Notes under the pieces: generated by a model
Databases searched by the model: none
What the model saw: only the letters and a program-made list of their open reading frames with translations
Told to the model about the DNA's origin: nothing
Made by a program: the position numbers and the translations under genes
Source of the DNA: Cenococcum geophilum 1.58
Taxonomy: Eukaryota > Ascomycota > Dothideomycetes > Gloniales > Gloniaceae
DNA: 64,000 bases
Direction of reading: 5' to 3'
Assembly (NCBI GenBank): GCA_001692895.1
Contig: KV748243.1
Location: forward strand, 441,248-505,247
Shown: positions 1 through 62,194 of the stretch, one piece after another
Layout: each line of letters begins with the position of its first letter
How positions within the stretch are numbered: position 1 is the first letter of the stretch

Positions 1-2470
1 GCCTATTAGTTACAAAATATATCCGTAAAGTATACTTAGGATATTCTACGGACCTACTGGATTAATACGTACGTTAGACCTCCTAAGTATATTACCTATA
101 ATGCCGGTAAGAACTTTATTAGCAAGGAATTCTAGTAGTATACTACGGCTATAGCTATATTAACAAAAGCAGTTCCAGTTAAGGCGTATTAGTCCGTTAG
201 GCTTATTAAATAAGCTTACCTAGCTCTACGGAGAGCTTACTAGATTATTACGGACGAATATAAGGATATCTAAAAGGAGCTAGCTCTATAGATAGCCGTA
301 AAAGCCGTTAATAACACTACTAGCCTAGACGGACTAGTACCTACCCTCTTAGTCTACGGAGCCTACCTAAAAATAAGTAATCTAGACCCTCCTACCCCGT
401 CTATTATAAAATGAACAGCTATAATACGGAAGGTAATAGCTAAGATAGTTAAGCTATAGGCTAAACAAACTATTAATAACGCCCTATACTACTGCAACGG
501 ACCTAACACGACCTTAGTATATAACCTCCCGCTTAACTCTAAAGTCCTTATATAGCGTAAAAGCGGTAAGTAGACCGGACCCTACTGTTTACTAGCTATA
601 TAAAATAAAACGTGCTATATATAACTTTCTAGCGGCCCAACTAACTTTAGGAGCACGTCCGTAAAACCCTACTTTTGGCCTAAAAACACCTATAACATTA
701 AGCTAGATAAACTAAAAGCAACCGCCAAATTAAACAAAACAGAAGCACCCCTGCCTACTCTAGAAGTCCCCTAGGAACCTACTAAACCTACTAAACCTGC
801 TATAAAGCGTGGTTAAGGACGCCCCTAAAAGTACCCTATAACTAAGAATACTATAACAGAGAATTACCTAACCTCCGCAAAAATATCTATAAGGCAATCT
901 CCGCCTATGGATATATTAGTTCTAATATAGGAAACCCCTTTTACGGACTTACAACATAAAGAGATTAACGGACTACTTAAAAAGGGTATCTTTACGGTTA
1001 TAACGGAGAAAGACGTCCCGTAAGGCGCCCATATATTTAACTTACGCTTTATTAATAAAATTAAGCACCCTAGTACTAACAAAGCCTTTAAAAAATTAAG
1101 GCTTATTATATAAGCCTATAATGACTAAGGGAAGGGCTTAGTCCTTACGTAATAGCCTATAATTTAATAAGTCAGCTAACGAATTATACTTACACTTACG
1201 CCCGGACTATAGTAAAGTAAACCCGTAGCCCTTTACCTACAGGATATCTCGCAAGCCTATATGTAGTCTAATACCTACCTAAGCAAAGACATCTTTATAT
1301 AACCACCCCGTAAGCTTAACCTATAACTAAAAACAATTTTATAAGTTATAAAACCTCTCTATAAAGTACCGGAAGCTAGAAACTACTAGTTTAAGATGTA
1401 TTACTAGCACTACGTTAGTAAACTTAAAACGGAACAGTTAACCTATAACCCCTACCTCCTATACACCCAATTAAACAGCCTTAGTATTATTAAACTCTAA
1501 ATAGATAATACCCTATTCTTAGCAGACTAGACCTTTATAGACGCTAAAGAAACTAAACTATAAAAGGCTAAGTTCTTAATAAAGCTGTAAAAGCAGTTAA
1601 CTAAGCAGAATCTAATTAAGTTTAATAGAGGCCTAATTACCTAAAAGGGCAACCTAATTAAGCTGACTTAGAAACGCTAAGCCTAAAATCTAAAGCCTGT
1701 TACAGCGAAGCCTATAGACCTCACTAGCTCCTGCGGAGAGATTTGTAAAACCGTAAATATAAAGGACTAATACATTGCCCAGCGCGTAAGAGGCGCCTAT
1801 ATTACCACTGTCTATTAACCTAAATCTGCCTATAATTTGTCCTTTGTGGCCTAGGTAGTAGATCTATAAAAGAAAAATATTAAGCAGCTTAATAAGCGTA
1901 TTTAGTGGCAAATTAATAATACAGTAAGGGGACTCACTTTTATACCACTAGACCTAAACTCCCTTAGCCTACTAGTATTTATAAACGCCTCCTTTGCTAA
2001 TAATAAAGACCTATTATTACAAATTGGCTTTATAATTATACTTACAGACTGTAATTAGGACGTAAATATACTATATTAGTCTTTAATTAAGTGCAAATAA
2101 GTAACCTAAAGTGTACTAGCTTTTAAACTATATACACTAGCCTATAGCTTTAATATAGTAGCCGTAATCAAATTAATAGTCTAGAAGATTCTATAATTAG
2201 AGTAGTTACCCCTAGTCTTATACACTAATTTAAAGTCCCTCTATAACTGCTTAGTTAAGCTAGGTATAATATAAGAGAAGAGGCTTATAGTCGACCTAAT
2301 ATGCTTATATTAAGCCTATAAACAACGCGAGATTACGGAGGTTAAATAGATTAGTAGTAAAAATAACCTAGTAAACGCTATAACTAAGGCAAAGCTGTAT
2401 TAAGCCCTTAAAACCCTAATTAATATAAATAGGCTTAACCTAGAAGTTATAGAATGGGTAAAACGGGATT
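1..2470 (+). mobile_element. Ty1/Copia retrotransposon fossil, 3' part
   Basis: Translated pieces on the plus strand look like the Copia order: the end of the integrase around 350-690, reverse transcriptase from about 930 to 1600, and RNase H from about 1940 to 2440. The left end lies outside the window. The element is heavily broken by RIP-type mutation and is a fossil. The stretch 2470-3190 is probably its 3' untranslated part and a possible LTR, but I could not pair it with a second copy. Family assignment rests on the order integrase before reverse transcriptase and on Copia-like wording of the RT segment. Confidence 0.75.
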
Positions 2471-2479
2471 AACGGAGCA

Positions 2480-3200
2480 CCTATGGTATATTTATGGCCT
2501 ATTAGAAGGCTATACAGCTTATTATACGGTCCGTTCTATAGACCGTAAGCTATTAGATAATTGGCATAGGTAGATTACCCTAAATTACTATAGACTGCCT
2601 ATGTTACGGTACAGGTAGAAAATGGTGGAAAAGCTGCGGTGGAACTTAGTGGACTTACGTAACCTGCCGAATTCTGCTATATTCTGCCACGGTAGTCAAA
2701 TTAACCAATTACAATTTTCCATCCCCGGGATAGAAAATCGCTATTAGCTCGCTTAGCACTAGCGCCTTAGCGGCCCTTAAGGTTTAACTTACAGCCAGTT
2801 TAGAGCACCATTTAGAGGCAGCCCAGAGGGCACATTAGGGGGGTTTCCTATGTACTCCCTTTGCACCTTATAGTTCTATTTCTTATATATTTCTTCTATA
2901 TTTTGCGGTTCTATTAAAGCAATTACAGAGGCTATATATAGGTGGTTTTATTCTTTAAGTACCGCTAGTATATAATTATAGCACCTGTTATACTAACCGC
3001 GTGCTTACGCGTTTAGTACACTAAGTACGCGTTTACGCGTCGGTGCACTAACCACTTACTTACGCGTCTGGTGCACTTACGAAGCACTAACTAATTAGGG
3101 GGAGGTGCGTTAGTATATAGACCACGTAGTCTACCTTAATAGAATTAACAGTTACTACTATCCTAAAGAGCATATAATATTATACATATTTCGTGCCCCG
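2480..3200. other. Tail region of Copia fossil with TACGCGT cluster
   Basis: No coding potential is visible. The segment 2983-3085 contains several copies of TTACGCGT or close variants mixed with GGTGCAC, an unusual CpG-containing patch in otherwise RIP-mutated DNA. A sequence beginning TGTTATACTAAC at 2983 and ending TATTATACA near 3191 has the TG..CA limits of a small LTR of about 210 bp, but no second copy lies in the window, so this is only a suggestion. Confidence 0.35.
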
Positions 3201-3846
3201 GGATACGACTCACTCATGCTATTAAATTAGTACGAACAATTATTATCCGTTAATTAATTAACTACTGCCTATAATTGTCCAACTATGACTAGCTGTGAGT
3301 TAGTATCTACTATACTAGTGTTATTATTTAATCTTAAGGTAGTTGCTGCTATAGACGCCGTTATAACTACTACTTTTAGTAGTATATTATTTAACTTTAT
3401 TAATACCGTAATCTTAGTAGTAAATATATAATAAAGCCTTATAGGAAATACTATAGCAGACTTATTAATGGGCTAAGTATATAGGTAAATAAGAAGTTAA
3501 AACGTAATAATAACTAGTAGAGTAGTTGCCTAATAGATTAACTCTAATTATATTTTAAGGTTTACTACAAAGAAGAGAACTATCTAGGTAGGGACTATAG
3601 TCCTTTAAATATATAATACTACGCCTAAGAAATATACTAAGTACGTTAATACGTTAGTACGTCAGTATATCGCGTTCCCACGTTTCTATATTTCTATATT
3701 CCGAACTTATAACATAACTAGCTATATAACTTAGCTACCCATTATCCTATAGTTTAACTAGCTCTAGCACCTCCTATATTTCCTCTACTAGTCCGTTTAT
3801 ATCTCTTCTTAGTAGTGCTACTACTGCCGATATAAGGTCTGTAATA
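3200..3846 (-). mobile_element. Ty3/Gypsy fossil, 5' end only (gag start plus 5' LTR)
   Basis: On the minus strand this piece matches the first part of the two large Gypsy elements further right: an LTR (3427-3846, 420 bp) followed by the start of the gag region (about 3426 down to 3200). It is clearly more diverged from them than they are from each other, so it belongs to an older or sister subfamily. The rest of the element is missing. It is a broken fossil. Confidence 0.7.
3427..3846 (-). repeat. Diverged Gypsy 5' LTR
   Basis: The 420 bp align from end to end with the 423-425 bp LTRs at 7886, 17803, 18507 and 26036, with mutated versions of the same terminal sequences. The adjoining sequence to the left matches the gag start of those elements, so in minus orientation this is a 5' LTR. 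Confidence 0.65.
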
Positions 3847-3854
3847 GTAGCTAG

Positions 3855-5560
3855 GTATATATAGTAGTAATTTAGGTAGTATAATAGCTTTAAAGCTAAT
3901 TGTAAATATTAACGCCGCCTATTTAGTTATTGTAGTTAATAGAGAGCCTAAGAAGCGTTAACTTCTTAATTAAATTATCGCCCTAAATATTAGCTACTAG
4001 CTTCTTAAGGAAGAAATTATATACCTGCAACTAACGCTAATTAACTTTATTAACGTCTTTAATACTATATAAGTCAGCTATTATTAAAAACTGTATTAAA
4101 TTCTTATCCTATTATATAATTAAAAGCACTAAATTAACTACGCTAATAACTACTCCTATAATAAAATTAAACAATAGCCTTTCCTTTCTTTTATCAGCCC
4201 TTTTATATACCTCTAGATAGTCCTTTAAGTTTAATTAAGCCGTACTAGCTGTAGTAATTTTAAGCTATTAAAGTGCCTAAAGTAACAGAATATTTATAAA
4301 GTAGTTATCTAAAAATAGGCAAAATTGGCGAGCCTAAAGAGGAAACTATTAGGTAAGGTAAAGGACGTACTTAAAGGTATTTAAGAGAATAATATCTTAA
4401 TAATCTGTTTAAAAAGGAAGCCTAAAAAAGTAGCTAGGTAAGGTAAATATAAAGCTATAGTAATATCTATATTAATAAAGGCTTATTATTTTAAAGCCCT
4501 TAAGTACTGGCTTACTAGGTAATTTAATTATAGCTATAAATTATCTAGTAAACCTTACTATTATTTTATTAAAGCTAACTATAGATTTAGGTATAATATA
4601 CTTTCTAAACGCCTTGCCTAAAGAAGTTATTAATGGCTTAATTTTCTTAAAGACCTAATATTTAACGCCCTCTAGTAGAGGTAGTAAGATATAGAAAAAG
4701 CGCTTAAGTTACTTCTATCTTTTTGGCCTATAAATAAGCTAATTAAATGTCTAGGATATTTAGGATTTATAGCCTAAAGATCTTATACCTAAGTGCCTTT
4801 AAAGACGCCTATATAAATAATAAGCCCTACCTAAATTATTAATTCGCTAGTAGAGGTCTCCTTTTACGCCTATAATTATTTACCTATATATTATCCTAAT
4901 TAGTAATATCCGCTAATATTTTAAGAGGCTATATATAGGTTTATATTAATTATAAGCTTCTTAAATATACTAATGCTAAAGAATAATAGAAATACTTAAA
5001 TTAGTAGGTCCTATTTAGATCTATACCTACTAGACTCTATACTAATTTAATCTACTAGTATATAGTAAGTAAAGCGCTTACTATCCTTATCCTCTTTAAA
5101 AGGGTTATTAGATTTAATATTTGCGTTAATACCACTAATAGGCTTACTAGCACGCCGAGCGGTAAATATTAACTTATTTAGAAGGTTAATAACTTTAAGG
5201 TCTAGTTTAGGAATAGTAGCTATAAGCTCCTATAAAGTAGGAATAATAAAAAGGCCTATTCTTATAACTTCTTTAGCTAATAGCTTTAGTAGTTTGGTCT
5301 TATCTACCTTATCTGCTTTATCCTTAGTAGTTTTACTATAAGCCTTAAAAACGGCTCCTAATTTATCTTTAATATCCTTTATCTAGCTACTTAGCCTAGC
5401 CTCTTTAATACCCTTAATTAGCACTACTACCTCCTGCGTAGCTACTGCTAATAAGCTATTATATATATACTATGTCGCTTAAAAGGATTATAAATAGGAC
5501 TCTTAGGCTTAAGGTGCTTTTAGAGGCTTTAGAGGCTTTAGAGTGTAATATTTTTTAGGT
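3855..5560 (-). mobile_element. piggyBac-like DNA transposon relic (DDE_Tnp_1_7)
   Basis: The minus-strand translation, interrupted by many stops of RIP type (CAA/CAG to TAA/TAG), keeps the order of motifs of fungal piggyBac-like transposases. Around 4690-4740 there is a KRFF-type segment, around 4510-4620 a segment reading close to the family phrase for the catalytic core (..VRFTxR..KPxxxGFKI..), and near 3890-3950 a match to the family phrase MGGVDxxDQLxxYY close to the C-terminus. N-terminal sequence reaches to about 5560. I could not define terminal repeats or the TTAA target. The relic cannot encode protein now. Alternatives are unlikely given three collinear motifs. Confidence 0.65.
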
Positions 5561-46429: not shown

Positions 46430-49400
46430 CTAAACTTTTGTAGTTGCTCCATTTACTTGTCCATTCGCCTTTGGACTACTCTCGTTCTTCGCGCCAGTCT
46501 CTTGTGCGACCAGCTTGTTGTACATTGATTCCATTTGTTCTGCAGTCCTCTTCACAGTCCAATATCTCTTGACCACAAATTCCCTAGACATGGTTAGTTA
46601 ATTCAAACTCCAAAGGCTCTCGACCGAAGGCCTTGAAACTTACCATAACCGACTTTCCAGGCTGGGCTGATCTCGAACCTCGGCGCGGATGAAGTTACCA
46701 ACAGCTATAAGTGATGATTTAAGAACTTTCGTACGAGTTGTTTCAGGGTATGATTTCCAGTTCTTGAGGCGTTCGAGCTGGTCACGGACTGGCCTCATTT
46801 TCTTCTCCGCGTATTCATCGCGGTGTAAGTTCTGGGCGCCATTCGAGGTCAAATCAACACTGCGGTTATGGTGTTGATGAGAAAGCTCCTCGGATTTAGT
46901 ATGCTTAGCCTTGTCGCCCTCACCACTAACCTTACGTCGAAGCTCTGGTGTAGCATTCCTATCGGACTGTGAAATGCGGCGGTCAACGCTAGAACGATGA
47001 TCACCACGGTGGTGGTCTGGGAGTCGATGTCGATGGTCTAGTGCACCATGCTCATTCTGCCTATTCTCGCCACGACTTTCAGTGTGACGATTCTCACTGT
47101 TGCTGTGGGCGCGCATGCGCGGTCTTTCAGAATCTCGTGCTGCTTTGCGCATGCTGTTGCTTGGCGCTGGGCTGGCTGAGACGCTCGTCGATTTGTCAGG
47201 GCGACGACTCCCACTGAGCGACTTCTTATTGTTGCGGTGGTGATTTTCAATAAGCTTCTTAGCGTTCGGGTTGGTTCCAGCTTTTTCCTTAAGCACGGTC
47301 AAAAGGTAATTAGCCCTCCTCACAAGATGCACTGCTCCTGGTGACTTCGCGTTCTTATCTTCTCCTTTACTGCGCTCTTCCTTCTTGTCAACGCGATGTT
47401 CCTCCAGGAAGAATTTATCGCCCATGCCGAGCTCTGCATCGTCCCGAATTGCTACCCAGGCACCATACCCATGCCTTGCAATGCCAACACATAGCATACC
47501 ATCCTCTCGTGCGCCCCAAGAACATGTGTAGTGAGCCGGCTTAGTTGCGTCAGGAACACGGAAGTTTTTCCAGTCCGCCGCGGCTTCGGTAACTTCTTTA
47601 ACCATGCGCATTTCAACAGGTCTCTCCACGAGAGTCTCAGCATTCAGACGCTTAACACCCTCGTAGTCGAATAGAATTGCCTTCTTGTCTTTCTTAGTTA
47701 GGGCTTTGTTCGACTCTTTCTCCATTGTTTCCAGCCTTGTTTGTTCTTCCTTGAGCAACTTCTGACTCATTGAAACCACTTTATTAAGTGTAGCTTTTAA
47801 CAAATCGATGTCGCGGCCAACAAGCTTAGCATCTCGAATCATCTCCTCTCCGCGCTCCTCTATCGAGCCATACCTTTCGTAAGCCCTGATGAGATTCCGA
47901 ATCTCCTTAACATTCAACGGCCGTTTGGGGTCATTGTCAGTACTGGAGTCATCGCCAGAACCACTTCCATCAGCCGCTGCTTCCCGAGCTGCTTCCCGAG
48001 CTCTCTTTTTGGCAGCTCTCTGCTCGCGGTCGCCTGAAGATGGGGCTTTGCGCTTCCTTGGAGCACTCTCTTCAACAAGTTTGCGGGTCTCTTCTTCCTC
48101 TTTCTTCTTCTGAACTTCCGCCTTGATGACTTCGAGCTCGTCCTTTGGAATTATGTCATCCCACTCAAGGTCAATTTTCACATCCGTATATTCAAATGTC
48201 TTCAAGAACTCCTCGCCACCATCGGAGGTGAGCCCAGGGGCTTGCTCTGTCTTGTGTTCCTCAGCGTTCTCAAGTACGGCATCGATGTCAAGTTCTTCGA
48301 GTTTCTTTTGATTACCAGATTGCTCAAACATTTTCTGTCCACGGCGTTTCAAAATCCGGTTGATTTCATCAGCAGATGTGGGTTCGCCAGCAATGTCTTT
48401 AGCCCGAGCTATTTTGTCAGAAAACTCCTTCGTTTCTTTGTCAGTGACGCCACGATGGATGGTGATGAATTCGAGCATTAACTTGTTGCGAGCACGCTCA
48501 AGAATTTCTTCTTCCACGGTATCCTTGGATACTAGCCTATAGATACTAACAGGATTTTTCTGGCCAATTCGATGAGCTCGAGCCATTGCCTGAAGGTCGG
48601 CTTGGGGGTTCCAATCAGAGTCGAAGAGGACGACAGTATCAGCAGTCATGAGGTTGATGCCTAGACCACCAGCTCGGGTCGACAAGAGGAAACAAAAGTC
48701 ATTGCTATCGGGAGCGTTGAAGTGATCAATTGCCATCTTTCGATCACCAGAAGTAACGGTGCCATCCAACCTCTGGAAGGCATAATTGCGTAATCGAAGA
48801 TAGTCTGTCAAAATATTAAGCATCTGCACCATCTGGCTGAAGATCAAGACGCGGTGGTTATCCCTTTTTAGCTTTGTCAGAAGTCGATCGAGTAGCATCA
48901 TCTTGCCGCTGGTTGTGATGAGAGCCTTCAGGGTATCCTCTTTTGTAGCATCCTCTTTCAAGATTTTTGCTTCAGCATTTGGGAAGATAAGCGGGTGGTT
49001 ACTGGCCTTCTTCAATTCCATCATGATGTTTAGGAGGGATTGCTTTGGTCCTTTTGCGCCCTCATTAAGAGCTTCATAGTTCCTAGTAAGGATATTTTTG
49101 TAATACTCGAGTTGAATGTCAGATAATTCAACTCGAAGAATCTTTTCCGTTTTCGGGGGAAGGTCATTCTCGACTTTCTCCTTGGTGCGACGGATCATAT
49201 AAGGCTTAATAGCAGCACTAAGCTCAGCGATCTTCTGGCTCGCAGTCTCGGATTGCAGGTCAATGTTCTCGTCGAGATTCACCTTGCCTGGCATAAGGAA
49301 GTCCATGAGAGCAGAGAGTTCTCCAAGGGTATTTTGGATAGGCGTACCCGTTATGAAGAGGCGGCTCGGTGCTTTGAACTCAGAGAGTTTGTTGTAAAGT

Positions 49401-51525
49401 TGTGAGTCCCGGTTCTTCAGCCGGTGAGCTTCGTCCACGGCCATGAATTGCCACTTGAGCTGTGAAAGAAACTGCCAGTCTGCAAGTACGAACTCGTAAG
49501 TTGTAAGCAGCACGTTAAACTTGACCTTCCTGATGTTGCCATCTACCAAGAGTTCGTATTCTTGAATGATCTTGCGAGCTTCCTCTTTACCGGTGTACGC
49601 AACGTAGTTGATGTCTGGTGTCCAATTATTGAATGTGTCAGCCCATGCAGGCAAAGTCGATAATGGTACAACAACAATAAATGGGCCTTCTTGACGCCTG
49701 TCGTGCCGAAGCCAATTCATGAAGGCAACAGTCTGAACAGTCTTGCCAAGCCCCATCTCGTCGGCCAGGATGACATTGTTCCCTTTCCACCAGTTGTGTG
49801 CAAGAAAGTTGACTCCATGCAATTGGAATGAACGAAGCTCGCCAAACTTGATGTATGATGGTTGTTCCTTTAAGGTGACGAAGTTTCTGCGAGTCGCAGG
49901 ATTAGCCTCTTTGCTATCGGAATATGGCAATCTGGAGGATCGGTCAAGGTAGCGATCGATTTCGGATTGAGCTAGACTGCTGACTAGAGTGGTACTTTCC
50001 CAAGTGCAACAATCGTAGGGCAATGCTTTCCCTATTGCATGTTAGATTCTGCCTCAAAAAGTGACAGCACAACGACTAAACGTACATTTCACGTAGTATT
50101 CCGTTTCTTCATCTCCTTGGCGAGTACCGATCACTCGTTCGACTTGCTGGAAGTCAAGAATGGCTTCTCGGACTTTCTCTCGGTCAATTTTATATTTGTC
50201 GTAGTCATCAGGATCATCCTTCTGATGCACCTTGAAATGCATCTCCTCTATGATAATCTTGCGGAAGTAGTTCTCTAACTTCCTAAAACCGCGGCATGCC
50301 GATACAGTCTCAAACTCTTCCCAGGTTGCATGGTAATGTGCTTTGCCTTGCCATTTGATCTGAAAATTGAGGTTAGGCTGAGAGCCAGTATACAATAGGA
50401 TGGTTGCAAACTTACAAAGTAGTCGAAGTTTTTTTTGTGTGGATTTTTAGGATCCAGCTCTAGACTCGTCATTAGCATTTGACCGACTAGTCATACGTGT
50501 TCACTTACCAGTACCCTCTTTTGGACGATGGTCGAGAACGATGTCAATAGCTGGTGAGTTATCTTCAGCAGCTGTACCCCAGTAATTTGGTGTCGTCAAC
50601 TCCGATTCTTCGTCATCAAACATATCTTCATCATCCTCATTGTAATTGGCAACAGGTCTGTTACGCCTTGTGGAGAAGCGGACTTCTGCTCGCGAGGGAG
50701 GTAATAAGCCGGCCGCTACCTGCAGTTGGCGCTGCCTCTGCTTCTTTGTGGGAACGTTTCTCCGAGCACCAACATAAGTGTCGGAATCAGAGTCCGATTC
50801 GGCAGTGGATGCGAGAGTTGGAGTGGGTTGGTGAGAAGCTACAAGAAATTCAAGTCAGAAACACAGAGGGCACTTCGGGCTCAGGAGGTGAGTGCGCAAT
50901 ACCCTTTCTTGAGGTTGAAGTCTTCTGTCTCTTACGAGGCGCCTCGGAGGCAGAATCGTCATCATCGTCATCAGTGCTCTCGACCTGTCAATTCACATGA
51001 GCACTATTTGGAAACATATGAACTGGGATACTCACGATTCGGCGGTTAGGTCGAGCACGGCCCTGGGATGATGTTAATGGATGCTTCATGGAAGATGTTG
51101 ATGGGACGTACGCTTCTCCGCAGACCATATAGCTCGGGGTTTTGGGTTATGTATTCATCATCCTCCACGCTGGCTTTCCGCTTCGATGGTCTCCGTGAGT
51201 CCTGCGACGTTGAACTACACGCCCGGCCGGTATTCAATTGAGCCGGCGGAGGAGTTTCAGAGTCGTAGTCGCCATCAGCTTCTCCTTCAGCATCCTCATC
51301 TCCAGAAGATTCCGAGGTCACTCCATCTGCCATCTCTACATCATATGATTTCCCCTGGGAGTCTTCATCGGAGGATGGGTCCCCGGCGATAGGGTCCTTG
51401 ATGTCAGAGAGTTCGCTATCACTCCGGGATGACATATCATCTATGTTTGTCACATTGAGCGCGAGAGGCGACGAATGGCCATTCGTGAGTGGAAAGGAGG
51501 TAGTAGGATTCGGAGGAGAGGGCAT
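46430..51525 (-). CDS. CHD1: Chromodomain helicase DNA-binding protein 1, chromatin remodeller
   Basis: Eight exons: 51525-51112, 51062-51036 (27 nt), 50984-50903, 50838-50509, 50459-50416, 50359-50086, 50031-46644 and 46583-46430. They give exactly 1571 codons, 1570 aa. Order of parts: acidic, Ser-rich N-terminus; two chromodomains (about residues 255-340 and 355-410, the second reading YYVKWKALPYDCCTWES); a SNF2 ATPase with ADEMGLGKT near residues 481-488, a DEAH box, and the GLGINL/HRIGQ motifs; a SANT/SLIDE-like DNA-binding region; an Arg/His/Ser-rich linker; and a C-terminal DUF4208/CHCT helical domain completed by the last exon (LWEFVVKRYW). CHD1 spaces nucleosomes behind elongating RNA polymerase II. 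All eight exons are needed for the family sequence. Divergent from RLI1. Confidence 0.95.
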
Positions 51526-52383: not shown

Positions 52384-54607
52384 ATGGCGGACAGGTTGAC
52401 TCGGTATGCCCTAGAACACAGAACACAGGAGGTTCTCATTAACTGATATCCGCTCAAAATAGCATTGCGATAGTCAACAGCGACAAGGTGCGCCAGACTC
52501 CCCACTACTACCCCTCCAACAATACAGAAATTTGACCAGAGCTGATACAATGAGGTTATAAATAGTGCAAACCTAAGGTGCGTCGCTACAAAAACTATTC
52601 ATGAGCTGTGCCTAACAGTTAGACAGAAATGTAGGCAAGAGTGTAAGAAATCTTGTCCCGTCGTGCGTACCGGAAAGCTCTGCATCGAGGTCACCCCCGA
52701 GTCTAAGATTGCATTCATCTCCGAGCGGCTTTGTATTGGATGCGGTATCTGTCCAAAGAAGTGCCCGTTCGATGCCATCAACATTATCAATCTGCCCACC
52801 AATCTAGAGACCCAGGTCACCCATCGATACTCTGCGAACAGCTTCAAGCTACACAGGCTGCCGACGCCACGACCTGGCCAAGTTCTGGGATTGGTAGGAA
52901 CAAACGGCATTGGCAAGAGCACAGCCTTGAAGATTCTTAGTGGAAAGTTAAAGCCCAATTTGGGAAGATATGACAATCCACCAGATTGGGAGGAGATTCT
53001 TAAATACTTCCGGGGTTCAGAACTACAAAGTGGGTAATAGAACTGGAAAATTTGTCGATAACATATACTGAAGCTTCACAGACTATTTTACAAAGGTGCT
53101 TGAAGATAATCTCAAGGCCGTTGTCAAGCCCCAATACGTCGATCAGATCCCGAAGGCTGTGAAAGGACCAGACAAGACTGTTGGTACTCTCATCAAAGGA
53201 CGTTCCCAGATGGAAAATTTGGAGGAGATCCTTGACGTCCTAGGTAAGATGTCCTTCTTCATTGCTGATGAGCGCATGCTAATTAGCCTGCAGAATTAAA
53301 TCAAGTCCTTGAGCGAGATATCACACTCCTCTCTGGTGGAGAGTTGCAGAGGTTTGCCATTGGCACGGTCTGCGTGCAAAAAGCGGATGTGTAAGAACTA
53401 CCGAAATATTTCTATGCAGAAAACGACTGATCTGTATCTAGCTACATGTTTGATGAGCCCTCATCTTTCCTCGACGTCAAACAACGTCTCAATGCTGGTA
53501 AAATAATTCGCAGCTTGCTCCGGCCTAACGACTATGTGATTGTGGTTGAGCACGACTTGTCAGTTCTCGATTACCTTTCCGACTTTATTTGCGTACTTTA
53601 CGGCAAGCCAGCCGTATACGGTGTCGTTACGTTACCTTCGTCTGTCAGAGAAGGTATCAACATCTTCCTTGACGGCAACATCCCAACCGAAAATCTCAGA
53701 TTCCGCGAAGAATCCCTGCAATTCCGCATTGGTGAAGCTGGAGAGGAGTTCATGGTCGACAAGTCACGTGGATACAGTTACCCTAAGATGGAAAAGACCT
53801 TGGGCAGTTTCCATCTTAAGGTTGAAGCTGGCCAGTTTACCGACTCCGAAATAATCGTCATGATGGGCGAGAACGGTACTGGCAAGACTACCTTTTGCAA
53901 AATGCTTGCAGGTGCAGAGAAGCCTGATGGCACCAAGAAGATTCCAGCAATGAACATTAGCATGAAGCCCCAGAAAATCACACCAAGATTTCAAGGCACG
54001 GTCCGACAGCTGTTCTTCAAAAAGATCAAGGCTGCTTTCTTGAGCCCACAGTTCCAAACGGATGTTTACAAGCCCCTCAAGATGGACGACTTCATCGACC
54101 AGGAAGTGCAGAATCTCTCCGGTGGAGAATTGCAGCGTGTTGCCATCGTCCTGGCACTCGGCATACCCGCCGATATCTACTTGATTGACGAACCCAGCGC
54201 CTACCTCGACTCCGAGCAGCGTATTGTTGCAGCTAGAGTAATCAAGCGTTTCATCATGCACGCTAAGAAGACTGCCTTCATCGTCGAGCACGACTTCATC
54301 ATGGCCACGTATCTCGCAGATCGAGTCATCGTATTCGATGGGCAACCCGCCGTGGATGCTAAAGCTAACTCTCCAGAGAGCCTGCTCACGGGCTGCAACA
54401 AGTTTCTCAAAAACTTGGACGTCACCTTCCGCCGCGACCCGAACTCGTACCGACCGCGCATCAATAAGTTCCACTCGCAGCTAGACCAGGAGCAGAAGTT
54501 GTCAGGCAACTACGTAAGTGAAGACTACTCACTTCATTATCCCTCCGCCCATCTGTTGTGTGATTGGGACTAACATCAGGCAGTTCTTCCTGGAAGACGA
54601 GAGTTGA
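52384..54607 (+). CDS. RLI1: ABCE1/Rli1 ribosome-recycling ATPase with Fe-S domain
   Basis: Eight exons: 52384-52403, 52463-52487, 52566-52577 (12 nt), 52627-53029, 53082-53243, 53294-53390, 53442-54513 and 54584-54607; 605 codons, 604 aa. The first three tiny exons encode [15 protein letters not shown] and CKPK, completed by [11 protein letters not shown] to give the first Fe-S cysteine set. The second set is [12 protein letters not shown] (from residue 55). Two ABC domains follow: Walker [10 protein letters not shown] (110-118) and GENGTGKTT (382-390), each with LSGGELQR and a DEPS Walker B. The C-terminus is NYFFLEDES. Rli1 splits 80S ribosomes after termination and needs cytosolic Fe-S assembly. 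Length and motifs match the near-universal family. Confidence 0.95.
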
Positions 54608-55148: not shown

Positions 55149-57717
55149 CTAGTCCTCCTCAATCTCTCCTTCTTCACTACCAGACCGAAGACCGGGGTCC
55201 TCTTTTGGTTCCGGAACAGGCTGTGCTGGTGTCCTAGATCTATGTCGTCGAGGGGAAAAGGTGTGCTCACGTGAAGTTCTCTCTCTACGTGCCCTCTGCC
55301 AAAGACGTGTTAGTGATCAATTGGAAGTAAGAGGAAGGAGACAAACCTTGCTATCCCTTCTGCTCGCGGGACTCTCCCCCTCGCTATCTCTTCGTCGCCT
55401 CATACTACCTGGGCGGCTCTCGCCATAGTCCAATTCGCTACCTTTGTCACGTGGATCCGCACGACTAACATACGATCTCTCCCGCTCTGCTTCACGCTCC
55501 CTGCGTTCGCGATCATAATGGCTCAAACTGACCTGTCTAGATCCCCTGTCCCTTTCAAACCTATCTCTATCATCCCTCTCCCTGTCTCTGCGGTATGGCG
55601 GAGAAAGGCCTGTGCTACTCCCGGTCTTGCGATACTGCCTTTCTCGATCGGCCTGTGCCTTCTTGCGGTCCGCCTCGTATGCGTCAGGCTCTGGTGAGCG
55701 AGTTCGCGTACGATGGCGTCGATGAGAGTCAGCATGACCGTTGCGATAATCTCGATCACGCTCGCGGTCCCTAGGTCTATCCCGCTCACGCTCACGATCA
55801 CGGTGATCACGCCTGCTGCGGTCACGTTCTTGATCTTCTTCTTTCTCCTTCAAGCGACGCATGAACTTATCAAACGCAGAGCGGCGCAAGTCATCCGAGT
55901 CAAGAGCACAATATTCCTCAAGCTTCTCTACGCGAGGACGTACCTGCTCCCATGTATCTCCTACCGCAACTGGTGGCTCAAGGTGCTTAATCTTAGATCG
56001 GAGATTGTCGACTGCGCGACGCTGGTGGCGTTCTGCGTGGTGTTTGTCCTCTTCGTTACGCTTCAGGACTTTGTCGCGGAGACGTTCAAAGATTATTGAC
56101 ATATCATCGCGGTCAATGTTTGCTGTACGGCGATCAGCGTGCATCACAGACAGGAAGTCTTCGAAAGTAGTTTTTGTTGTGATTTCGTAGCGTTTGTCCT
56201 ATTAGAAAATTAGCATGTATGGCCTCAGCTATGGCAATGGACAGACTGACATCTAAAACATCCAGAACTTCACCCCGCTTGCCGCGAAGGGCGCGTTCTT
56301 CTTCTTCGACGGTGTCCCAGAAAAGATCCAGTGGTGTTGATCCCGATTGACCCAGCATTGCAACATACCGAGGGTCATCCTCAATCAGCGGATGAATGTC
56401 CATCCATTTCGTACCAGCTTTGATCTTGCCAGCTGATTTAAGATCGTTCAACAGGGTGAGGAACTGATCCCTATTCTGTCTTTCGCGCCTAGCTTTGAGG
56501 TGTTTCTGTTTCTGGCGAGTGTCGTTAAAGCTACGTTCAAGTGACTTGATATGATTCTCAAAAGCTTTGAGGATGTCTAACTTGGTAAGAGATTTGAACT
56601 TCTCATCACCTGAAAACCGTTCATTTGATTGTATGATTTCCTGTGCTTTTGACCACCGTGTATATGGCTCAAGATCAAGAGCGTTAAGAATCGAAATAAG
56701 TTCATCCATGGCTGCCTTTCGATTTGTTGTCTCATTCTCAGTATGGGTTTTCTTCAGTTCAATAATGTACTCTTCAAAGAGCTGTCTTCTCTCATCGTCA
56801 GTTTTCGCAGACCGAAAGATCGTCTCCTTCTCGATGATCGGCCGAGCCGTCTTCCAGCGTGTATAGTGTTTGATCTCTGGGTGTGATCTCAGCATTGAAG
56901 CGAAGTCAGAACGGAGTTTTGAGAGCCTCTCCTTTTCCTTGTCCTTTTCCTGCGCTCGTACTTCAACCACAAATTTCTCGAATGCGGCTTTTCGATCTTT
57001 CGGGTCTTTCAAAGCCCGATATTGCGAGTCTTTAACCGCTGCGCGCACAGTCTGCTCCCACGTCCATTCCGGTTGAACACCAACGCGCTTCAGAAGCTTC
57101 ATGAAAGCCGCTTCGGCTTCTTCAAATGAAGAGTATTCAGGATCTGTTTGTGAATTTGCTGGAAGTGCATTTCGCGCATTATCCCCACCTCCATACCCAA
57201 TTTGTCGATCACCACCTACCCGTTCAGGAAGGCTGTACTCATCTCGGTCACGATCGCGCTCGCGATCTCTAGGTTGGCTATACTGTGACAGGCTGGACGT
57301 GCCGCCTGCAACAAATGTCTGCGTCCTGTCTATGTGTCAGTGAAGTAAAGAAAGCAGACTGAAAGTGATCTTACTGCGCCGGGGGTCTCTGGGGCGGTTG
57401 ATTTTGAGCTAGTGCTTTCTGGAAGACATCTGGCATTTCCCACGTAGTCACATTCGTTTCTGAATTGTGCCAATATTTCCTTCCACCCGTCGCGGTGAAT
57501 TCTTTCCATGGCGAGTTCAGAAGTGCTCGCTATGTATCGGTCAGCCCGGTTTATAAAAGACGCACACTGAGTCGTTAAAAATCACCTCCGCTTCACTCAT
57601 CAAAGCCTCGGGCTTCGTCCATTGAGTCGCCTTGGTCTGAGTATTAAAGTAGTAGACACGTCCATCAACATGGCGGGCCTCCTGCCACACGACCGGGTTG
57701 GGTGGAAGCCCGTTCAT
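55149..57717 (-). CDS. PRP40: Pre-mRNA-processing factor Prp40 (U1 snRNP, WW-FF protein)
   Basis: Five exons: 57717-57586, 57529-57375, 57325-56251, 56198-55347 and 55295-55149, introns 49-56 bp; 787 codons, 786 aa. Two WW domains open the protein (WQEARHVDGRVYYFNT..TQW and WKEFTATGGRKYWHN..TTW), followed by a series of FF-type helical repeats (about residues 140-560) rich in W..A and F..F/Y patterns. The last 220 residues are an RD/RE/RS-rich tail ending EEGEIEED. Prp40 binds the U1 snRNP and bridges the 5' splice site to the branch-point protein and to the polymerase II tail. Only the five-exon path gives the complete WW pair. It diverges from TRS65, with a transposon block between. Confidence 0.94.
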
Positions 57718-58732
57718 ACTGACACATTCAAAACTTATAATGCTCGGGCACTGCTAAGTTTGGGGTTTTAAAAGAAGTTGGCTTTAGTATGTGGCTAGGA
57801 GATTCACTTGCCGGGCGCTGTCGCGTTGATGGCTTGCATGTTACCTCAGCAAGGTCAGACCGTAGAATCAATTAGCGGACATACGTATATCCGCAAGCGG
57901 ATATCGCTAACCTTTTTTGTCAAAAAGTTGATTCTGAGAGACTTTCCTAGACTTTATTAATGCTACCCACGTAAAGCCTAGGGCTGCATATAGGCTTAAA
58001 AGAATCGCAAGAAGTAGCTCTATAATTAATTAATTTTAAGGCCTTATATATATACTCGTTGCAACGTTATAGGTATTTCTATAATCCTTAAGAACGGATT
58101 TTTTTTTGGCGAAAATAATCTTAAATTTGGGTAGTCGTGGGCTAATTTAGACCTAATATTCATAAAATATCGGGTTACCTCTCTAATTAATGAAATTTTA
58201 GTAGTATTTTAATCCGTCGTGGTTGAGCGATTCGTTACTTTGTATAGGGAAAATCGTAGATATTGTCGGAGTGCGTAATAAACCTTGCGAAAGTGCCCCA
58301 GACGTGATTCCGGTGGTGCAGACCGATTGAAAATCCGCACCAACGGAATTTACCTCAGAAGCTCAGACCAAGAAATCGATTGCGGATATAGGAATATCCG
58401 AGCTGTCCGCTAAGCTGATTTAGGACGTCAATCGTTTTCTTGGTCTGAGGGACTTTAGCGAGATTTGTAGAAAACCTAAACATCGTTTATATAAGAAGAC
58501 CTTATTAACTTTAACGAAATTAATCTACCCTCCCACAATATCTGTCGATATAAAAATTACACTAAATTATAGAGAAAAGCCTACTCTATAAGTTATGAGA
58601 TCTTTAGCTCCTTATACGCGCGCGATGTTAAGAGGAATTCGTCGCCGTAGAGGCCCCAATTCTACTACTGAGCCGCTTAGTAAACACCAACGCTGAACGC
58701 TTACGCCCACGCCGCCAGCCCTCTGCGTAGAG

Positions 58733-58910
58733 CTGTGGAGCTTTGCGAGAGCTCTGCGGAACGAAGCTTAAGGGGAGACCTGCACGGAGCTCTGCACGGA
58801 GCCCTGCACGGAGCTCTACCAAAGCTCTGCACGAAGCTCTGCTCGAAGCTCCGCTCGAAGCTCTGCACGAAGCTCTGCTCGAAGCTCTGCTCGAAGCTCT
58901 ACTCGAAGCC
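58733..58910. repeat. Degenerate 12-bp minisatellite
   Basis: About a dozen diverged copies of the unit AAGCTCTGCACG, with variants such as CTGCTCG, CTCCGCTCG and GAGCTCTGCACGG. It appears to be an older array of the same unit that is perfectly tandem at 59257-59520. Both strands stay open because the unit is a multiple of three; the frames are not convincing genes. Confidence 0.8.
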
Positions 58911-59239
58911 TTATTGTCGATTCCCATTACCAAATACTGACTGAGTGGCGTTGTCGACAGTGGCAATTACAAATCGTAGTCGTCACCTCTATCGTCAGCA
59001 TCGTCATCAGCGTTTCGCCACCTACCTTATGTATATATAGTCTCTTTTCTTCACCTATATAGAGCTCTAAAGCTCTACTAATACGCAGCACTAATATACT
59101 AGGAAGGTTCTATAATTGCCCGTACAAACGCCCGTACAAACGCCCATACAATTAATCGATCAATTGCCCATACAATCGTCTCTACAAACGTCTGCAATTG
59201 ATCGCCCGTACGAATGTCTGCGCGTCTGCACAGCTACGC

Positions 59240-59606
59240 GCCTGCACGTAGCTCTGCACGAAGCTCTGCACGAAGCTCTGCACGAAGCTCTGCACGAAGC
59301 TCTGCACGAAGCTCTGCACGAAGCTCTGCACGAAGCTCTGCACGAAGCTCTGCACGAAGCTCTGCACGAAGCTCTGCACGAAGCTCTGCACGAAGCTCTG
59401 CACGAAGCTCTGCACGAAGCTCTGCACGAAGCTCTGCACGAAGCTCTGCACGAAGCTCTGCACGAAGCTCTGCACGAAGCTCTGCACGAAGCTCTGCACG
59501 AAGCTCTGCACGAAGCTCTGCACGAGGCTCTGCTGGGCTCTGCACGAAGCTCTGCATTAAGCTCTGCACGAAGCTCTACTAAGGCTCTGCACGAGGCTCT
59601 GCCCCC
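59240..59606. repeat. 12-bp minisatellite, 22 identical tandem copies plus variant edges
   Basis: The unit CACGAAGCTCTG is repeated without a single change from 59257 to 59520 (264 bp, 22 copies). Variant copies stand on both sides (CACGTAGCTCTG before; CACGAGGCTCTG, CATTAAGCTCTG after). Because 12 is a multiple of 3 and the unit has no stop, nearly every frame on both strands is open for more than 110 codons (ALHE, ARSS, ASCR, SFVQ, AELR repeats); none has a credible start or context. The GC-rich array sits inside RIP-like AT-rich DNA and its many CpA sites are unmutated. Confidence 0.92.
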
Positions 59607-60112
59607 TAGCAGTAGTGGAGGCATTCCGGGCTAAGGGAGGATATTTTTAAGGAAGGACCTAAGTATAGCACCTACTAGGTGTTACAATAGCTTTAAGTAG
59701 TAGATATCTACGTATCTGTATAATTTCATCTATATTAGCAGACTATTTAATAAGATACAGTATATGCTTAGGCTTTTAATAACGCGTTTTTTAACTTTAA
59801 CGAAATTAATATCAGGACTAAGCAATAGCTGTATTATAAAATTTATACTATTTAGAAGCCCTAAGTCTTAAAAATAATGTATAAACTTTTAGTAATATTA
59901 ACGCGTTATATAAATAAATGAATTAGATATCCGCAATCTCTATTTAGCGGATTTTACTTAGGTTTTTAACAAAACTCGCCAAACGCCCTTAGACGTGATT
60001 TTGTAATTCGGAAGACGGCGTAGGTTATTCCGACGCTAGCTTAAAAATCACGTCTGAGCTCGCTGAGGTAACAACGGAATCACATCGGAGCCTGCTGAGG
60101 TAAGCTTGCATG

Positions 60113-60280: not shown

Positions 60281-62194
60281 ATGGCCGCAATCGAGCCGGA
60301 AGGTCCGCCTCGTGAAAGTGCGGAGTTTGTGGAGATTTCGGTTCTTGAGGCTATCGTTCCTGCAGCGTCTTCTATTGGTATTGAAGACCTACTGCAGTCT
60401 TGGGACGGCTCTGTGGATGATGAAAATGCATCCATCCTTCCATTTATATCTCAAAGACAATTTCTTTTATTTGGTAAGCAGTTACAGTTCGTCACTATGC
60501 GCAAGCTCTCTTTACTTATCCGTAGGCTTGTAGACGAATTAATCCCTATATATATTGTGTTAAGAACTCCACTTATCCAAGCAAGCACTTTAAAATCGTA
60601 TCTCTCACGGCTAGCAATCAACCTGGAGTCATATGCTATTAGTACTGCGTCCAATACAGATGCGGGCGAGGCTTATGTTCCACCAGCAAAAGAGCTGCTC
60701 TCTTCTGAGACAATCCAGGATAGCTATAAACCAACAGTGGTATCACACGAAAATGGACCAAGTCCACATGTATATGTAATTTGGAAGGTTAATGTTTTCA
60801 TCTGTACGAGTACCCCGCAAGACATGATCCAAGGGCAAGCGATTAACAGAGACCAGGTCGCCCGAGAGGAAGGCTACAGAAGCCCGCAATCTACCTCGTT
60901 CCTGCAGCATCACTAAAACCTCCCGAGAGGGTCAAAAATGATGTACTTGGAGATGAATATTTACCGAGCAAAGTCCCTACAGCACTCAACCTCCTTCAAC
61001 CATTCGAAAGTGACCCGGCCTTAATTGGTGCTAACCTACGCCTTTCTGCTTTACGGATAAGCAAAGTTGCCCCTACTACGCCAGTGGCGAAAGAGTTAAT
61101 ACGGCCTATTAAAATTGGATTACGGCGTCTCTTCAGAGCAGCGCCAGCTATCATATGGAGAATCCGGTACTCAAGGTGGCACTCTTCGCTGAATGACATT
61201 GCAATAATCGCATCACTTGATCTTGAGGTTGCCCCCATCACAGGCTGTAGTGTGGCTATCAAAGGGGTTGAATTGACTCTTCAGGACGGTCGAGTGGAGC
61301 CATATGTCGGTAGCGTGAGCGCAGGCAACGGGATGGTGTGCAAGCCAGGCGACCAATTCACCCTTCTTTACAAGATTATCCCAGATTCGGCAGCAAGCGG
61401 AGCTTCCGTCAATAATTCAAATGTGCACACGCTCGACCTCAAAATTATCGCGCAGGCACTTGCTTCGGAAGATTGCCGTCCTAATATTTCTGTTGAGTGG
61501 AGGACAAGCGTAGACTTTTCCATGGGTTCAAACACAGCCATTGGAAGGGCTGCGCAACTGCTCGGCCGGCCCAATCAGTCATTCCTTCCCCCAAGCCAAC
61601 GCCCCAGACTCCCTGGGCCGGACTCATTACCATCACATGACGAGCACCGCGCGCAAGAAGACGACGGCTCAGATGATATCAACATCAGTCTGACTATTTC
61701 AGGCCCCTCCCAAGTGAACGTTGGAGACATTTTTCAATGGGATGTATTTATCGTCAACTGCTCTGATAAAGCACGGAAGTTGGCTGTATTGGTGATTCCA
61801 AAACGAAGAAAAGCTGAAACAGAACGACACATTGCCCATCCGTCAACTTCTTCTATAGGCGGCCGACGAGAAGATAGGGACGAACCAATGGCTAAAGCCG
61901 TTGTAGACGACAATATCGTGTATGCCAAGCAGAAGAACTCGAAGTTAGAGCCAGCAGAACTGATCAGTCTGACGACAGACGTCAGGATAGGGTATGTGGT
62001 ACTCTATACTCTTTGCTAAGGCATTCTAACGATTTAACCACAGACATCTGAGTCCAGGGGCGTGTTATACCGCAGAATTGAAATTCCTGGCTCTCTCCTC
62101 CGGCGTTTTGAGTGTTGATGCTCTTCGTGTTGTAGATTTGTCGACACAAGAAGCTACAGATATACAGGATTTGCCGAGCGTTGTTGTATCATAA
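60281..62194 (+). CDS. TRS65: TRAPPII complex subunit Trs65
   Basis: Four exons: 60281-60473, 60534-60803, 60857-61991 and 62044-62194; 583 codons, 582 aa. The start is the ATG MAAIEPEGPP; no better upstream ATG is in frame. Intron 1 (60 bp) must be removed to restore RQFLLFDELIPIYIVLRTP. Intron 2 ends at the second AG, restoring RPRGRLQKPAIY. The C-terminal part is beta-rich with SGPSQVNVGDIFQWDVFIVN and ends LSPGACYTAELKFLALSSGV...LPSVVVS, the conserved Ig-like region of fungal Trs65. Trs65 helps TRAPPII dimerise and act as exchange factor for Rab GTPases at the late Golgi. Transposon insertion lies 168 bp upstream. Confidence 0.88.

Follow-up and report, generated by a model that had tools for sequence, protein, structure and literature searches.

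Two divergently transcribed genes in the window, a stretch of 64,000 nucleotides from Cenococcum geophilum 1.58, are held apart by two transposable elements with like ends, one sitting inside the other, and the question raised by this locus is whether such a nest is a product of chance or whether the elements of this family seek out the ends of their own resident copies. The genome that was searched comprises 177,193,698 bases (177.19 Mb) in 162 contigs, and the window lies within contig C68. The minus-side neighbour of the insertion contains four FF-domain stretches (PF01846) as well as a WW domain (PF00397), as in PRP40, and the plus-side neighbour an IgD3_Trs65 domain (PF12735):

56134..57717, minus strand: 5' part of the PRP40-like gene with WW and FF domains (start codon at 57717, domain matches)
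60281..62019, plus strand: 5' part of the TRS65-like gene (start codon at 60281, PF12735)

At present the two ATGs are 2,563 bp apart. The insertion together with one copy of its target duplication accounts for 2,272 bp of this distance, and the remaining 291 bp agree with the original gap of about 290 bp claimed in the initial annotation, while the accompanying statement that 2.26 kb separates the start codons needs correction, as this is the length of the insertion. Elsewhere in the window, positions 46640-50041 encode a CHD1-like remodeller and positions 53431-54573 an ABC protein with an upstream frame rich in ferredoxin-like cysteines, which we take to be of the RLI1/ABCE1 type.

The insertion resolves into the following parts:

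57832..57840, plus strand: outer 9-bp target duplication, left copy, GCTTGCATG (sequence read)
57841..60103, plus strand: outer element, 2,263 bp together with the nested element (57841-58349 and 60081-60103 belong to the outer element itself)
58341..58349, plus strand: inner 9-bp duplication, left copy, CAACGGAAT, within the right end of the outer element
58350..60071, plus strand: inner element, 1,722 bp (sequence read)
58780..58909, plus strand: 12-bp minisatellite CTGCACGAAGCT of the inner element, 10.9 copies
59242..59602, plus strand: 12-bp minisatellite CTGCACGAAGCT of the inner element again, 30.3 copies
60072..60080, plus strand: inner 9-bp duplication, right copy, CAACGGAAT (sequence read)
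60081..60103, plus strand: outer right end, remaining 23 bp (sequence read)
60104..60112, plus strand: outer 9-bp target duplication, right copy, GCTTGCATG (sequence read)

The outer element runs from TTACCTCAGCA to TGCTGAGGTAA (57841-60103) and the inner one from TTACCTCAG to CTGAGGTAA (58350-60071), and the inner insertion site is located 32 bp from the right end of the outer element. Both elements share TTACCTCAG as end motif at their four ends, and in the 64-kb window the exact 9-mer occurs at these four ends and nowhere else; with up to one mismatch it is found at 12 places (4 of them exact) compared with a shuffle mean of 16, so that there is no excess. A transposase frame was found in neither window element among stop-to-stop frames of at least 150 aa, because every frame of this length within the insertion passes through the 12-bp minisatellite. 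The junctions and the absence of a transposase frame bear out the earlier proposal of two nested non-autonomous elements, each with 9-bp duplications. As the junctions show, an outer-type element entered the PRP40-TRS65 gap of about 290 bp, duplicating 9 bp, and an inner-type element later entered the last 32 bp of the outer element, again duplicating 9 bp. Taken alone, the PRP40-TRS65 locus is an ordinary nested insertion.

The inserted DNA had also been described as partly RIP-like, and this holds for the family pattern. Across 30 copies of the left flank of the inner element, 83 C-to-T changes were found at 17 CpA sites vs. 75 at 88 other C sites, and 54 G-to-A changes at 14 TpG sites vs. 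68 at 68 other sites; across 30 copies of the right flank the corresponding figures are 70 at 13 CpA vs. 95 at 62 other sites and 71 at 11 TpG vs. 87 at 71 other sites. Calculated from these counts, changes at CpA and TpG lie 3.5- to 5.7-fold above those at other C or G sites. The window copy itself is mildly affected only, with a modest RIP-type share of 7 of 20 changes on the left flank and 5 of 27 on the right. The AT-rich part of the window at positions 1-30000 (GC 0.33) is strongly RIP-like (TpA/ApT 1.56, second index 0.54), and its dinucleotide ratios differ from those of the gene flanks of the insertion.

The ends of the two elements recur throughout the genome. The 20-base end TTACCTCAGCRAGCTCAGAC was found at 768 places (384 per strand) when up to two mismatches were allowed, each of the 100 matches listed being free of mismatches, and the inner-left end TTACCTCAGAAGCTCAGACY at 157 exact places; the reversed control gave 0 in both cases. 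Candidate similar places numbered 331 for the outer part, 391 for the left flank of the inner element and 401 for its right flank, with 40 scored for each. Among 38 elements with both ends readable (loci L001-L084, both window elements included and, where more than one right end was possible, the best one used), the 9-bp duplications were exact in 24 cases, matched at 8 of 9 bases in five and at 7 or fewer in nine. The initial annotation had made its reading depend on terminal motifs that recur with 9-bp duplications, and they do so: in 29 of the 38 elements the two copies of the 9-bp duplication differ at one base at most. A looser definition of the ends yielded 37 end pairs with a duplication at no more than one mismatch, 31 of them exact; in this set one pair, L067, extends over two neighbouring elements, and two pairs come from the window. 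The duplications of these 37 elements showed no strong base preference as a target consensus.

As to the superfamily, the earlier assignment to Mutator-like elements is plausible in view of the 9-bp duplication and of 79 matches to the MULE domain (PF10551) in the genome, most of them with stops. Since no transposase-bearing copy with these ends was found, the assignment rests on the length of the duplication and on the inverted ends. MULE target duplications measure 8-11 bp, and for Mutyl, a MULE group of ascomycetes, duplications of 9-10 bp and inverted ends of 22 bp are given (PMC6446971). The duplications of the family, with the counts given above, fall within this range, and terminal inverted repeats are present in a short rather than a long form, about 20 bp being common to both ends. 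Membership in another superfamily with 9-bp duplications, which would agree with the absence of a transposase with TTACCTCAG ends from the three MULE regions that were examined, is unlikely given the duplication lengths reported for MULEs and the occurrence of MULE domains in the same genome.

These three regions (L081, L082 and L084), out of 79 places, contain no transposase with two TTACCTCAG ends. In L081 (C89) the MULE falls outside the 786-bp element, L082 (C11) offers a decayed MULE-like frame and no left end by relaxed search, and L084 (C19) has a MULE domain and no exact TTACCTCAG ends. L083 (C2, 186-4446), a 4.26-kb palindromic and minisatellite-rich relative of the inner element with two right-type ends, was likewise dismissed as a partner, as it is without a transposase frame or matching 9-bp flanks. 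L082 has one family right end that has about 42 bp in common with the outer type; at approximately 1950-4500 its decayed frame with many stops is followed by a minisatellite and the TTACCTCAG right end, an arrangement that is possibly the remnant of a partner. A cluster of five MULE-domain matches at C13:580946-606818, in which the final three are spaced at about 2.8 kb, is possibly a tandem transposase-bearing array. With regard to its form, the outer type exhibits the features of a MITE, i.e., it is short (L009, 800 bp), non-coding and of high copy number with inverted ends and a target duplication. With about 1.1-1.9 kb, the inner type exceeds the usual length of a MITE. Foldback elements carry at both ends long inverted repeats built of short tandem units, and the inner element in the window is not of this kind, its minisatellite arrays running in the same direction; the palindromic L083 is closer to that form.

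The ends follow a common layout, TTACCTCAG, a few bases and then a hairpin, which was found in all three ends that were folded (outer left, inner left and inner right):

57864..57935, plus strand: hairpin, outer left end (DNA fold z -5.8, equalled in 0 of 200 shuffles)
58362..58449, plus strand: hairpin, inner left end, with feet CTCAGACC / GGTCTGAG (z -6.4)
59988..60058, minus strand: hairpin, inner right end, arms 59988-60002 and 60044-60058 (z -2.2, 5 of 200 shuffles as good)

Control folds were not significant, with z values of +1.1 and +0.7 for two interior stretches and -1.3 for one flank. The hairpin feet of the inner left end are CTCAGAC and GTCTGAG, and GTCTAAG stands at one foot of the inner right end. 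At the outer left end of the window these feet are partly lost and are present in the copies L009 and L050. The outer right end of the window has lost the CTCAGAC motif, and its insertion site therefore belongs to a secondary class.

To locate nested ends, every second exact TTACCTCAG situated 3' of a first one in the same direction was counted genome-wide by its position, leaving out gaps below 5, an example of which is present in C11. Equal classes of 31 bp contained 31 rows (positions 14-44), 1 row (45-75), 23 rows (76-106), 2 rows (107-137) and 1 row (138-168), with 0, 1, 0, 0 and 0 rows in the reversed controls. When the sums of neighbouring gaps are dropped (one row in 107-137, in which two gaps of a triple nest are added up, and one in 138-168), the classes hold 31, 1, 23, 1 and 0, together 56 cases. 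Under uniform insertion each class would be expected to hold 0.08-0.8 rows if the ends number 925-3,000, figures above 925 being assumed. In the first class, 23 of the 31 lie at 14-22, five at 31-33, one at 37 and two at 44; in the third, 22 of the 23 lie at 77-93 and one at 106, and the row at C10:680795 (position 93) may be due to chance.

Where the hairpin could be placed, the two peaks fit its two feet: for the inner right type the near foot corresponds to positions 14-20 and the far 9-mer ACGTCTGAG to 76-84. The near-foot junction 9-mer is CTCAGACGT in two cases, and the far-foot duplication is CTCAGACGT as well, such that the peaks mirror each other. At position 106 the insertion hit a left end of the outer type, whose hairpin is longer; here, too, the duplication, CCTCAGACC, is the far foot. 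The 31 junctions of the first class comprise 26 different 9-mers, one of which, GCAAGCTCA, was seen three times. The site used in the window, position 32, was reused within one base in C13 and in L072, both at position 33. Back-to-back end pairs with spacers of 8-11 bases occur six times genome-wide at gaps of 0-30 (12 rows on both strands). A periodicity of 11 bp (22, 33, 44) is not claimed, as the cases are few and position 17 misfits.

Whether such tandem ends are true nests can be read from their junctions. Both junctions were read in nine of the 56 cases, picked because their far end was known; an own 9-bp duplication was exact in seven (the window, L038, L040, C2:5708464, C14, C94 and C2:4283184) and matched at 8 of 9 bases in two (C78 and C11:3000119). 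C83 and C13:1709, read on one side only, were left out of this count. In four more cases the outer ends are decayed; there the duplication is exact in L071, matches at 8 of 9 in L019 and is absent from L003 and L072, so that, with decayed ends counted, 11 of the 13 tandem ends read have their own 9-bp duplication at both junctions. In L072 the second end is 33 bp away and without a matching duplication. In L003 (1021-1946) a doubled left end, consisting of 17 bp and a full end, lies inside a single 9-bp duplication AGGACGGTT; as this duplication is outside both copies of the end, some tandem ends seem to travel as a unit, and the GCAAGCTCA junction (3 of 31) may represent a travelling lineage of this kind. 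Deep stacks of ends are found at C11:1209280-1209480, where 201 bp hold five ends, four of them exact and one decayed, and at C13:1961300-1961450, with three ends.

The same tendency emerged from a sample that was not chosen for nesting, namely the 37 duplication-bearing pairs, whose loci had been fetched by similarity, apart from L081-L084, which were fetched for nearby MULE domains or paired ends. A second family end within 150 bp (up to four mismatches) was found in 8 of the 37 pairs, a number reached by composition shuffles in 1 of 1,500, and in 7 of 36 when the window's own inner element is set aside. Five of the eight lie inside such an end (the window, L038, L040, L071 and L019), two at its boundary (L029 and L015) and one at a distance of 63 bp (L009). 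In L019 and L071 related end variants TTGACTCAGCATGCTYAGAC act as the target, and a further subfamily may exist. Overall, the data suggest that insertions of this family fall into the hairpin-forming ends of resident family copies far more often than expected by chance.

We consider it probable, at roughly 70%, that the elements form a non-autonomous, probably Mutator-like group that prefers its own resident ends as targets by way of a transposase binding to those ends. The insertion of the inner element into the outer one at PRP40-TRS65 would then be a case of this group-wide preference. The preferred target would be a 9-bp site overlapping CTCAGAC at the foot of a hairpin, with secondary sites approximately 31-33 and 44 bp into the end. 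A transposase that recognizes the ends of an element would also bind to the ends of resident copies, and an incoming element, held in the transposase complex, would be delivered to these bound ends and joined there. More tentatively, and with greater doubt than conviction, we suggest that by homing to transposase-bound hairpin ends the complex builds deep nests, leaves host genes untouched and inactivates older copies, whose ends are split by the newcomer.

An account that dispenses with binding by the family's own transposase, in which the shape of the DNA selects the target and extruded or bent end hairpins attract insertion at their foot, draws on much of the same evidence. The insertion positions fit both hairpin feet, the loop is nearly avoided with a single row at 45-75, the ends fold at z values of -5.8, -6.4 and -2.2, and the longer hairpin hit at position 106 carries CCTCAGACC at its far foot. 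On the other hand, the insertions at 31-33 and 44 bp fall within stem or loop, and since the hairpin feet also carry CTCAGAC, shape and sequence are confounded; selection by shape is a possible explanation, albeit a rather unlikely one.

Preference for the own ends could also be mimicked if tandem ends arose mostly by duplication of an end, through slippage or gap repair, and were then multiplied as double-ended elements. The doubled left end of L003 with AGGACGGTT outside both copies, the threefold occurrence of GCAAGCTCA and the precedent of plant MULEs with tandem inverted repeats (PMC3310237) are in line with such an origin, whereas the own 9-bp duplications on both sides in nine of nine cases, or 11 of 13 including decayed ends, and the diversity of junction 9-mers (26 among 31) render it distinctly unlikely as the main source. 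Plain nesting, finally, appeals to a repeat-filled genome that tolerates insertions in transposons, and Cenococcum geophilum has indeed been reported with 178 Mb and 81% repeats (PMC5023957), so that nests would be expected anywhere. Tolerance, however, predicts an even spread, and the distribution of 31, 1, 23, 2 and 1 rows over equal classes makes this explanation highly improbable.

Preference for resident own ends, the reading favoured here, has partial parallels in known systems. Fungal MULEs of the Hop and Mutyl groups resemble the present family in the 9-bp duplication and in the MULE domains of the genome; they differ from it in that here a terminal box is followed by a hairpin, no transposase-bearing copy was found and insertion into own ends is strong (PMC6446971). 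SaTar from guayule and AgS-MULE from rice are likewise non-autonomous MULEs with targeted insertion and multimers, but they target microsatellites and are described as uniformly non-nested, whereas in the present case the own end is targeted and copies are nested (PMC5907723). Plant MULEs with tandem inverted repeats show two ends in tandem on one side, as does L003; their origin was left open by the authors, among whose options is a nested insertion that has lost its inner duplication (PMC3310237), whereas in 11 of the 13 tandem ends read here both junctions carry the duplication that marks a nest. Nested small elements are also known as MITE multimers in rice and maize, and 11% of rice MITEs occur in multimers (Jiang and Wessler 2001 as cited in PMC10664404).

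Among the target preferences described for Mutator-type elements are genes (PMC6446971) and microsatellites (PMC5907723, PMC4486113). Insertion into own ends is not treated in the excerpted part of PMC3903597, and no report of self-insertion at end hairpins was found among the fungal-genome, MULE and MITE papers listed, most subscription journals lying outside the search. The pattern looks like a new form of targeted transposition. The PRP40-TRS65 pair provides an example of a divergent promoter with 2.3 kb of inserted DNA, which could, as the initial annotation proposed, have uncoupled or silenced either gene's promoter. If the proposed preference is true, landing in own ends at the feet of hairpins would be a countable signature of how the transposition complex finds its target, and self-insertion would act as a natural brake on the spread of the family, because each such event hits, and splits, an old end in place of a gene.
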